Shown: piece after piece, positions 13,434 through 16,453 of the stretch
Layout of the letters: every line of letters starts with the position of its first letter
How positions within the stretch are numbered: position 1 is the stretch's first letter
Source: Ciborinia camelliae
Lineage: Eukaryota; Ascomycota; Leotiomycetes; Helotiales; Sclerotiniaceae
Length of the DNA: 64,000 nucleotides
Assembly (NCBI GenBank): GCA_025890175.1
Contig: JANPYM010000001.1
Coordinates: 1,709,004 to 1,773,003, forward strand
Reading direction: 5' to 3'
Notes under the pieces: model-generated
Databases searched by the model: none
Told to the model about the DNA's origin: nothing
The model's input: the letters and a program-made list of their open reading frames with translations, nothing else
Position numbers and translations under genes: made by a program

Positions 13434-15614
13434 ATGGAGAACAACGAAAAATACTTGCATGGGAGGTTGGATCCTGGCATTGAATCGACTTTACAGTTAG
13501 TCGAGGGCGTGGAAATTCCGGACACGAGTCCTTTTTTATCTTCACAGGAAGAGTTCTCCCCCGAATCATCTCATGGCGAAAATTTGGTATTTCCGGGTAT
13601 GTCCCTCTCTCTGTTGCATGGCATTTGCATGGTGTTCTTGGCTTATGGGTTGCATCTTTACCCTGATGGAAAGGACAAGGTCTTCCATTTGAGCATATAT
13701 TCTAAATATTGACAATTATCGATTGAGAAGGATGACAACTAATAGTAATATTTTCCATCTTTAGATACCAGATCTTTCAGTGAAACTCAGCTCAGTTTAG
13801 CCCGATTTCCGATTGAGCTTCTTCGCCAGATTTCTTCCTATCTTCCACCTCGCGATTTGGTAAAGTTGGGAAGAACATGCAAAACGTTAACTGAAGTGGC
13901 CAAAACGGATTCTCTTTGGCGATGCCTCGTACAAGAGAACGTTCCCGGTATCGATCTTGATCATCCTCGTCCATGCGAGTCTTTTAAGGAACTTTACAAA
14001 GCTCATGATCCTCACTGGTTCCTTCCGAGGAACAAACTATGGTTTTCCGATATTCACCATTTCGGAAAGTTAATGATTTCCAAATACGACCCCGAGACTG
14101 GCTCTATTGGACTACACAGACTTGTAGCAGAAAAGAAGCCACGTCGATTTTCTGCGTGGGGAGACAATAACGAAGTCATCGTTCATTACTTTGAACCAAG
14201 GACATATTTGTCTCGGCACGGTCTGCGATTGGATGTTAATGCATATTCTGACCGATCCCTATCAGATATGGGTGAAGCTGAACGCAGGCTCAAGGGCGAG
14301 ATGCCATTGACCCGAATGGGCGATGGTCCTAATTCTCGTGCATGTTCGAAATTTATGCTGGCAAAATCCTTGGCAAGTAGAAGCCGCTCCATCGCGCCGC
14401 GGGCGGATCAATGGCCACCAGTAAACATACCGGCAAAGTCTCAAGTAGATCGACCTACCATCTCCGACCAGTCCTCTGCAGTTAAATGGTCTCGGCCCGA
14501 GGATCGTTCTCAAATAAATGAGCAATCGTTTCGAATTAGACAATGGTTAGAGATGAATGGACAGGTTCGAATGGCAGAAGAAATGCAAACATGGTCAACC
14601 CTTGACGTGAAGTTATATACTCCGACAGAGTATAAGCCTTATAGAGGTATTTTTGTAAGTTTGTTCTCACTTGCATTATCTTTCTCGATATATTTCGACT
14701 CCGAACTTTCACCGTCGCGCGCATGAGTCGACCGGAAAGTTTGTCTGTTCCATCTTCCGTTTCTCCCCCACAATCAAGCCCGAAATTCCCCAAGTCTTTA
14801 ACCCCACCAAACCTGACTACACCTTATAACCTGCTTCCACATGCGTTCTCAAAGAAAGCTTGGCCAGAGTTTCCAATATTCCGGGATGCACCGACCATGA
14901 AAGATTCTTGATTCTTGAACTTATTTCATATGTTTGATTCGAATTTAGGACAGTATATTCATTTACAACATATCCACCTGAAATAGTTTAACCCTTCCAC
15001 AGGTTCATAGTTTCTGGAATATTGAAAACCTTCAAATTCGACTATTGGATACACTGGTTTGGAAAATTGATTTTAAAATTGAAACCTTTGTTTAACTGCT
15101 AACTCAAATCACAATTTCAGGTCGGGGATTACTCAGGTCATGGCACCGAGTTTTTGTTAATGGATCAACGAGATGGATATGATGAGCCAAATATGTTAGA
15201 GCGGAAAGCAGACGAATCGCCTGAAGCATGGGAAGAAAGGAAAAAACATGCACGGATTTACCAAGGTTCTTTACGCGCGATTAAGTTGACTGGAGATCCA
15301 AATGTACCTCGGGGCGAGTTTTCATGGGTTGCAGATGATATTGGTGAAAAGGGGTTGATTCGTTATGGGAAACACGAGTGGCCTGGTGCAAGAATCGTTA
15401 AGAGTCGTGGTCAAATTGGGAACCATGGTTTTAAAAACCGTATGTATTCCTTCTTCAAGAATTGTATCGAGGTTCTTACTGACTGTTTGCAGCTAAATAC
15501 ATTGAAAGCCAACTCATAATGATATCTCACGATGAGTTGGCGCAATACTGGGTACCTTTTGGACACATTTCTTTCTTCCGTCGAGTTGATATTGACGCTT
15601 TTATTAAACCGTAG
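13434..15614 (+). CDS. F-box protein, FBXO31-like
   Basis: Likely substrate-recognition subunit of an SCF ubiquitin ligase. Exons 13434-13596, 13765-14654, 15121-15439 and 15493-15614 give 497 residues. The F-box starts in exon 2: ARFPIELLRQISSYLPPRDL followed by KLGRTCKTLTEVAKTDSLWR. Downstream, HDPHWFLPRNKLWFSD begins a second conserved domain. Exon 3 carries VGDYSGHGTEFLLM and IKLTGDPNVPRGEFSW, and the C-terminus matches the beta-rich C-terminal domain of animal FBXO31. Exon joins keep the frame in all cases. Intron 2 is 466 nt, far longer than others here, and contains an open stretch at 14723-14911 with exon-like composition, so an extra or alternative exon is possible. Substrate unknown. 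Confidence 0.82.
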
Positions 15615-16211
15615 GTAAATAGGGGAATTGACAAATCGAGGAATAATTTGAAGAAAGACAGATTTTTATGATATCTGAAATATAATATGTGGAAGATTTT
15701 ATTGACCTAGTAGGAATAATATCTAAAGTATCTATGTATAAATGGGGTTTGGAAGTTATAAGTATTTGTTATATCTAGAGGAAGGAGCATGTCTATTTTA
15801 GAAAGATAGTAATAAGATATATTGTATCCCTCACCTCATCTCATCTCCTTCATCTAATCTCTAGGTATATAGACGAATATCTCTATCTGATATTTTGGGT
15901 AATAGTGATTAAATGATTCTTGCGTTTATAGTTCGTTAAAGGACAACCTTTATCTATAGTGATTTTATCGATTGAGGAGAACTATAGGAATAATTTAATA
16001 TATTCCTTCAACTAGATCTAATGTTAAGTACAGCTTTTAGATTTATTTACTTTACTTTATATATAGACCAGATTCGAATAAAGCAAAATGGAATAAAGAA
16101 ATATAATTCCCTCTCAAGGTTTATATTATTTGAGGTAATATTCAACTAGATCCACACTTACTTAATCCCACAATATATTTTCTTCTATCGCCGTCTCGTC
16201 AACAAGAAGTT
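15615..16211. other. AT-rich intergenic spacer
   Basis: AT-rich spacer between the F-box gene and the tRNA gene. No feature supported. Confidence 0.5.
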
Positions 16212-16354
16212 GGATTTGTGGTGTAGCGGTTATGTTAGTACATCCTTATTCCCTACTTATTATCTCTGTATATATACTAACATTCTATTAACAGCACGTT
16301 TCCTTTACAATCGTAAAACGGAAAAGGCCCCCGGTTCGATCCCGGGCAGATTCA
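16212..16354 (+). tRNA. tRNA-Val(UAC) with two intervening sequences
   Basis: After removing two inserts a full cloverleaf forms. Acceptor stem GGATTTG/CAGATTC (16212-16218 with 16347-16353, two G-U type pairs), discriminator A16354, D-stem GTG/CAC, anticodon stem TTTCC/GGAAA, T-stem CCCGG/CCGGG with loop TTCGATC. The anticodon loop is TTTACA-C, giving anticodon UAC (valine). A 9-nt insert at 16310-16318 sits right after position 37, the canonical site for nuclear tRNA introns. A second 61-nt insert at 16234-16294 splits the D-arm just before its 3' strand. The A box TGGTGTAGCGG (16219-16229) and B box GGTTCGATCCC (16333-16343) are intact, and a T6 run at 16370-16375 could terminate RNA polymerase III. 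Whether the gene makes functional tRNA depends on removal of the D-arm insert. Confidence 0.85.
16234..16294 (+). other. Spliceosomal-type intron inside the tRNA D-arm (candidate)
   Basis: The 61-nt insert begins GTTAGT, ends AACAG and has a perfect TACTAAC branch-point sequence with its A at 16280, 14 nt before the end. Length and motifs equal those of mRNA introns elsewhere in this window. It has no run of four T, so it would not stop RNA polymerase III. No target-site duplication is visible. Removal restores the GTG/CAC D-stem exactly. Confidence 0.75.
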
Positions 16355-16369: not shown

Positions 16370-16375
16370 TTTTTT
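16370..16375 (+). terminator. Candidate RNA polymerase III terminator
   Basis: A run of six T starting 16 nt after the tRNA discriminator base. Confidence 0.6.
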
Positions 16376-16388
16376 GTTTTTCTCTGGT

Positions 16389-16453
16389 TTTTTTTTTTTT
16401 TTTTTTTTTTTTTTTNNNNNNNNNNTTTTTTTTTTTTTTTTTTTTTTTTTTTT
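16389..16453. repeat. Poly-T tract with assembly gap
   Basis: Two T runs of more than 25 nt each flank ten N characters at 16416-16425. The gap length is presumably nominal; the true homopolymer length and any sequence between are unknown. Confidence 0.95.

Follow-up and report, generated by a model that had tools for sequence, protein, structure and literature searches.

In fungi, the nuclear gene for 18S rRNA is said to contain an mRNA-type intron, described by Rogers et al. in 1993 (cited in PMC11782384). Among small structured RNAs, U3 and U6 were reported in 2017 to be the only ones known to be often interrupted by introns (PMC5832005). In fission yeast, an intron is spliced out of U6, which is made by Pol III (PMC10484740). 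Fungal U3 introns are described as having GT-AG ends and an RCTRAC branch, and some genomes, those of Botrytis cinerea and Sclerotinia sclerotiorum included, carry one intron-bearing and one intronless U3 copy (PMC5832005). Eukaryotic tRNA genes, in the published accounts, have one intron, and tRNA splicing is free of the spliceosome (PMC8450103; PMC13149111). For Cyanidioschyzon merolae, introns of the D- and T-arms are supposed to be removed before the anticodon intron (PMC9602550).

The gene studied here lies in the window, by which we mean the whole stretch of DNA analyzed (64,000 nt, C1:1709004-1773003), which comes from the camellia-blight fungus Ciborinia camelliae (Sclerotiniaceae, Helotiales). 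It was originally predicted, from its letters, to be a tRNA-Val(UAC) gene split in the D-arm by what looked like an mRNA-type intron. Its parts, all on the plus strand, are as follows.

16174..16178, +: TATAT at –38 of the gene, within the range of TATAW in many native tRNA genes
16212..16354, +: tRNA-Val(UAC) gene with two inserts, mature length 73 nt (sequence; ARAGORN on joined exons)
16212..16233, +: 5′ exon (acceptor 5′ strand, D-stem 5′ strand, and D-loop, to position 22)
16219..16229, +: A box TGGTGTAGCGG, uninterrupted (by eye)
16234..16294, +: putative spliceosomal-type insert, 61 nt, between D-stem positions 22 and 23
16234..16239, +: GTTAGT donor of the insert
16275..16281, +: TACTAAC branch motif of the insert (fits RCTRAY); presumed branch A at 16280
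16290..16294, +: AACAG acceptor of the insert
16295..16309, +: middle exon (D-stem 3′ strand, anticodon stem 5′ strand, anticodon UAC at 16306-16308, to position 37)
16310..16318, +: ordinary anticodon-loop intron ATCGTAAAA, 9 nt, SEN type, after position 37 (ARAGORN)
16319..16354, +: 3′ exon (anticodon stem 3′ strand, T arm, acceptor 3′ strand; ARAGORN on joined exons)
16333..16343, +: B box GGTTCGATCCC
16370..16375, +: T6 run, probable Pol III terminator of the gene

Re-reading the sequence gave the same 61-nt insert, GTTAGT donor, TACTAAC motif, and AACAG end that the original prediction had named. The longest T run within the insert is 2, so that the claimed lack of a T4 run holds, and both promoter boxes are intact as described (the A box by eye). 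The second, 9-nt intron after position 37 was likewise recovered: ARAGORN on the joined exons returned tRNA-Val(TAC) with a 9-nt intron at 37/38. Removal of the insert does restore the D-stem, although as three pairs (10–12 with 23–25) and a U13-U22 mismatch, not as four pairs. On the raw sequence ARAGORN called no tRNA at this gene nor anywhere in the 64,000-nt window, and Rfam at the gathering threshold matched nothing in the window, this gene included. The donor region ATGTTAGTA (16232-16240) is perfectly complementary to the branch region TACTAACAT (16275-16283) of the same intron. The two can pair over 8–9 bp in a possible donor-branch stem; the fold is no better than that of shuffles (z –0.65), and the complementarity was not seen in the paralogous Val gene on contig C26. 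Upstream, the neighbor of the tRNA is an F-box gene that ends near 15611 and whose protein matches NHQ30_000476 of Ciborinia camelliae at 99%. Just past the tRNA terminator lies a poly-T tract with a 10-N gap (16388-16453), and a similar poly-A/10-N gap adjoins a tRNA-Gly gene in locus L047.

At least three tRNA genes elsewhere in the genome carry inserts of the same kind, again in the D-arm.

C26:853614-853562, –: second Val(UAC) gene, with a 53-nt insert GTGAGT...GCTAAT...AAAAG and a 19-nt anticodon intron
C9:703516, –: Leu(UAA) gene (locus L122), with a 59-nt insert GTAAAT...CATACTAAC...CATAG after G19 (19/20)
C1:4880443, –: Ile(UAU) gene (locus L124), with a 58-nt insert GTAAGT...CATACTAAC...CATAG at 13/14

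The insert of the second Val(UAC) gene sits at 22/23, the same D-stem site as in the window, and with its 53 nt removed ARAGORN calls Val(TAC). A genome search for a Val(UAC)-type anticodon arm followed by a B box matched 20 places and a relaxed pattern matched 38. Stems were checked by script at 21 of the 38, and the other 17 were assessed visually on their matched letters. Two of the 21 script-checked matches, the window gene and the C26 gene, have complete anticodon and T stems flanking UAC, and no Val-like arm was seen among the other 17 by that reading of matched letters. These pattern searches (20 and 38 places) thus found no insert-free Val(UAC) gene in the genome. The original prediction had left room for intact copies elsewhere; the sole other Val(UAC) gene found has an insert of the same type at the same position, and no intact copy was found. 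The wider tRNA census of this 46.2-Mb, 27-contig genome was partial, with RF00005 scored on 62 of 2182 candidates. Four pattern searches for this census counted 200, 199, 186, and 101 places, numbers inflated by repeated ends of the same site, with about 100 among the matches listed. No Val(AAC) or Val(CAC) gene was found in this partial census, possibly owing to a different B box; the one ARAGORN call of Val(cac), at locus L106, resembles the Leu(CAA) genes.

Both the Leu and the Ile insert contain the branch motif TACTAAC. The Leu gene has a paralogue on contig C5 without the insert, which reads GCCGAGTGG-TCTAAGG against GCCGAGCGG, the 59 nt, and then TCTAAGG in the interrupted gene. MAFFT alone places the gap a few bases upstream with more mismatches, and the GT-AG placement leaves one mismatch. 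In their 3′ parts the Leu and Ile inserts have a TCCATACTAACA block in common, and both end in CATAG; the local score was reached by 2 of 300 shuffles (one of six comparisons), and the block possibly reflects a common origin or a mobile intron. ARAGORN on unmodified sequence missed all four genes, and the Rfam tRNA model, run on the loci of the three genes outside the window, found the Leu gene despite its insert (35.1 bits) and missed the C26 Val and Ile genes at E 0.01.

The fetched loci contain 134 distinct T-arm sites, 107 of which ARAGORN called as native tRNAs. At the other 27 we tested GT-AG deletions of 40–130 nt (847 candidates), and a tRNA was restored at five, four of them credible (window Val, C26 Val, Leu, and Ile). 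The fifth, C1:3739509 (L029, s33), was rejected: it needs a 125-nt deletion and gives a poor Ser reading, and Rfam returned nothing above cut-off, with two weak matches elsewhere in the locus. That site (L029 around 1500, minus strand) has a B-box-like T arm, a T-run terminator, and an A-box-like sequence upstream, and may encode a different Pol III RNA. When the deleted segments had one of three other end pairs, no tRNA resulted at Leu or Ile but some did at both Val sites and L029, which shows that ARAGORN is permissive. In a negative control, 99 real tRNA 3′ halves (from position 26) were each joined to ten random 5′ window sequences, giving 990 contexts and 24,181 GT-AG deletions. An ARAGORN match of some kind was obtained in 100 of the 990 contexts, and one with a branch motif in range in 5. 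The corresponding figure among the tested sites is 4 of 27, to be read with the fact that these 27 are a nonrandom set (the window site was known beforehand, and motif patterns had been used to fetch some of the loci). Plain B-box patterns also retrieved the Leu and Ile sites, which were first read by eye, then by script. GT-AG ends alone are not independent evidence, because the scan required them.

The motif string by itself does not make the case. Counts of a branch motif, AG, and B box in order were not above those of the reversed control: 4 versus 7 (CTAAC, short distance), and 20 versus 58 and 17 versus 49 (ACTAAC). The genome-wide ACTAAC patterns returned three of the four genes (C26 has GCTAAT) along with an ordinary Ile gene with ACTAAC just upstream, and the remaining matches of the sets of 20 and 17 were not tRNAs (by eye, from matched letters). 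A chance motif string was thus set aside as the whole basis of the finding: with pattern counts below control, the case rests on the tRNA context. Its weight comes from an otherwise complete tRNA, the same insert position in a diverged Val(UAC) gene, and two further tRNA genes.

For comparison with mRNA introns of this genome, proteins P0121 (own species) and P0001 and P0153 (Botrytis relatives) were aligned to the window with a splice-aware script. This gave 11 introns after one artefact was dropped, of which 9 short ones were kept and those of 168 and 348 nt left out. The artefact was a 42-nt "intron" in SPT5 proposed by the aligner, at a place where the relative's protein aligns without a break. 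The tRNA inserts match the short mRNA introns of these three genes in length (53–61 versus 48–89 nt). An RCTRAY motif occurs in all four inserts, starting 16–19 nt from the 3′ end, and in range in 8 of the 9 mRNA introns; the range given for the fungal consensus RCTRAY is 6–36 nt from the acceptor (PMC5832005). All four inserts have GT...AG ends, with donors GTTAGT, GTGAGT, GTAAAT, and GTAAGT. Exact GTRNGT is found in two of these donors, the other two being off by one base, versus 5 of 9 short mRNA donors. A YAG end is present in 9/9 mRNA introns versus 3/4 inserts, the C26 insert ending in AAG. TTTT occurs in none of the four inserts versus 5 of 9 short mRNA introns, a difference in the expected direction that is not significant (Fisher P 0.10). 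Each of the four genes has in addition an ordinary SEN-type intron in the anticodon loop at 37/38 (9, 19, 12, and 28 nt). A self-splicing group I or II intron was rejected, since the catalytic core of such introns is well over 100 nt versus 53–61 nt for the inserts, and the window has no Rfam match at the gathering threshold. A recent repeat insertion was likewise rejected as the origin of the window insert, whose only match in the genome is itself. In length and branch motif, and in its recurrence in a second Val(UAC) gene, the window insert is consistent with the mRNA-type intron originally predicted.

We find that the tRNA structure has been kept while the sequences diverged. Of the 20 stem pairs, 9 are not the same in the two Val genes, and 7 of the 20 are changed on both sides and still paired (hypergeometric P 0.0008); the others are pair 11-24, U-A to U-G, and pair 4-69, which is C-A in C26. 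In Leu, pair 3-70 is C-G in the insert-bearing gene and U-A in its paralogue. One C-A mismatch is found in the acceptor stem of each of two genes, C26 Val (4-69) and Ile (3-70), and these might reflect decay or editing. The two Val inserts have no detectable similarity to each other (27 of 300 shuffles were as good), so that the argument for their common origin comes from position. That common position suggests, without proving it, that the Val intron predates the divergence of the two Val genes, in which case the paired changes arose with the intron present.

The four genes also retain signals of Pol III transcription. A T run follows each of them, at a distance of 15 nt in the window gene, 1 nt in C26, 7 nt in Leu, and 4 nt in Ile; among 110 native genes called by ARAGORN, TTTT lies within 20 nt in 83 and is missing from the first 45 nt in 12. 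By eye, the A box is whole in the window, C26, and Leu genes and is split by the insert in Ile, and the B box is present in all four. TATAW occurs at –70 to –20 in 63 of the 110 native genes versus 23.4 expected from mononucleotide shuffling, and 88 of 105 native occurrences fall in the bins from –60 to –36. An upstream TATA therefore seems to be part of the tRNA promoter in this genome. Among the insert-bearing genes it is found at –38 (and –90) in the window gene, at –34 in C26, which is the edge of the native range, and at –47 to –43 in Leu; Ile has none in the usual range. Pol III transcription of the window, C26, and Leu genes is thus likely from these signals.

Three other explanations of the inserts have to be weighed. 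The introns could be real spliceosomal introns of a Pol II transcript in which the tRNA sequence is an exon, so that the spliceosome would not encounter a Pol III transcript at all. Pol II RNA is the usual setting of spliceosomal introns, and the Ile gene, with its split A box and no TATAW in the usual range, would suit such a precursor. Three of the four A boxes (by eye) and all four B boxes are intact, however, T runs begin 1–15 nt after every gene, TATAW lies upstream of three, and TTTT is missing from all four inserts. Moreover, no protein-coding gene was identified over the window gene, the downstream side being judged from mechanical ORFs only. We consider this explanation improbable. 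Even less probable, in our view, is that the genes are decaying tRNA copies hit by insertions, with no splicing and with splice-like motifs that are chance or the remnant of a mobile intron. The C-A acceptor-stem mismatches in C26 Val and Ile fit decay, as do the insert-free Leu paralogue and the possibility that wobble covers GUA and AUA. A 2014 review, too, describes noncanonical introns of eukaryotic tRNA genes as rare, mostly found in one of many synonymous genes, and supposed to mark pseudogenes (PMC4090602). Decay does not readily account for an insert at the same position in two Val genes that differ by seven paired double changes, nor for full splice signals in four inserts when 5 of 990 control contexts had them. 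It also sits poorly with the finding of no insert-free Val(UAC) gene by pattern searches of the genome, and the window insert, matching only itself, is no recent repeat.

The remaining explanation is that the tRNA splicing endonuclease removes the inserts as ectopic tRNA introns, cutting at a bulge-helix-bulge in the way known from archaea and Cyanidioschyzon merolae. It has a precedent in D-arm introns of that kind, one of them in the C. merolae tRNA-Ile(UAU) (PMC9602550; PMC3978253). If the bulge size is left free at 0–3 nt, the central helix reaches 4, 3, 3, and 4 of 4 pairs in the four genes, but with 16 registers per gene allowed; with the standard 3-nt bulges, the central 4-bp helix has only 2, 2, 2, and 0 pairs, and the ends and branch motifs fit mRNA introns instead. 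We regard it as highly improbable. On the sequence evidence, then, we conclude with good though not complete confidence that the window insert is a spliceosomal intron (GT-AG, U2-type) interrupting a functional nuclear tRNA gene, and that this genome has at least four genes of this type.

If the inserts are spliceosomal introns of Pol III transcripts, the internal A and B boxes and the upstream TATA would direct Pol III to transcribe the whole unit as far as the T run; the insert, having no TTTT, would not end transcription early. The spliceosome would recognize the donor, branch, and acceptor in the uncapped precursor and join position 22 to 23, as it is known to act on one Pol III transcript, fission yeast U6 (PMC10484740). 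The D-arm could form once the insert is gone, and SEN, measuring from the folded tRNA body, would then remove the anticodon-loop intron together with tRNA ligase. In yeast, Sen54 is described as contacting the D-arm and holding the catalytic subunits at a distance from the body of the tRNA (PMC4090602; PMC3978253). Since the insert prevents the D-arm from forming, spliceosomal removal is expected to precede the SEN step. The introns would have originated through insertion into tRNA genes that already existed.

GUA is probably readable by Val(IAC) through wobble, and AUA could be covered by wobble too. The idea that the cell depends on this splicing is weaker than stated, since this wobble reading of GUA is probable and one Leu(UAA) copy lacks the insert. 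For the same two reasons the affected tRNAs may be partly dispensable, and selection on them may thus be weak. We lean slightly toward a broader model in which, in Sclerotiniaceae and perhaps in Leotiomycetes more widely, certain tRNA genes must pass the spliceosome and then SEN. Such introns would have been gained repeatedly at several sites of the D-arm (13/14, 19/20, and 22/23), and ordinary tRNA finders would for the most part overlook the genes. All tRNA-Val(UAC) in this genome would be supplied by two of them, which would tie decoding capacity to splicing capacity.

Should the mRNA-type reading be right, these genes would contradict the one-intron and spliceosome-free views of eukaryotic tRNA genes, extend the action of the spliceosome beyond U6 to other short, uncapped precursors made by Pol III, and offer a natural test of how introns enter structured RNA genes. 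Intron gain and retention are directly testable on the two Val genes and on the Leu genes, one of which has the insert while the other lacks it. Insert-bearing genes may also explain "missing" tRNA genes in fungal annotations, given that ARAGORN missed four of four and Rfam found only Leu among the three loci tried. We found no report of spliceosomal introns in nuclear tRNA genes in the open-licence papers searched, which does not in itself prove novelty; the available text of the 2014 review of tRNA introns does not contain the string "spliceosom" (PMC4090602).

Several described systems resemble the present one in part. In nucleomorph genomes (Guillardia theta and others), eukaryotic tRNA genes have insertions of similar location, in the D and T arms, but those introns are given as 3–24 nt long versus 53–61 nt here, where they carry mRNA splice signals (PMC4090602). 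In C. merolae, as here, nuclear tRNA genes are interrupted both in the D-arm and at 37/38, and tRNA-Ile(UAU) is affected in both organisms, with the intron at 12/13 there and at 13/14 here (PMC9602550). The C. merolae D introns are described as bulge-helix-bulge introns, and GT-AG ends or a branch motif are not invoked in the available text (PMC3978253). The canonical SEN introns at 37/38 occur in the same four genes as the D-arm inserts, which lie elsewhere, are longer (53–61 versus 9, 19, 12, and 28 nt), and have mRNA splice signals. The fungal 18S rRNA intron is, as here, of spliceosomal type and in a structural RNA gene, but rRNA is transcribed by Pol I. The introns of fungal U6 snRNA and U3 snoRNA are likewise mRNA-type introns in small structured RNAs. 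Unlike these, the hosts here are tRNA genes that also have a SEN intron, and the intron breaks the D-arm.
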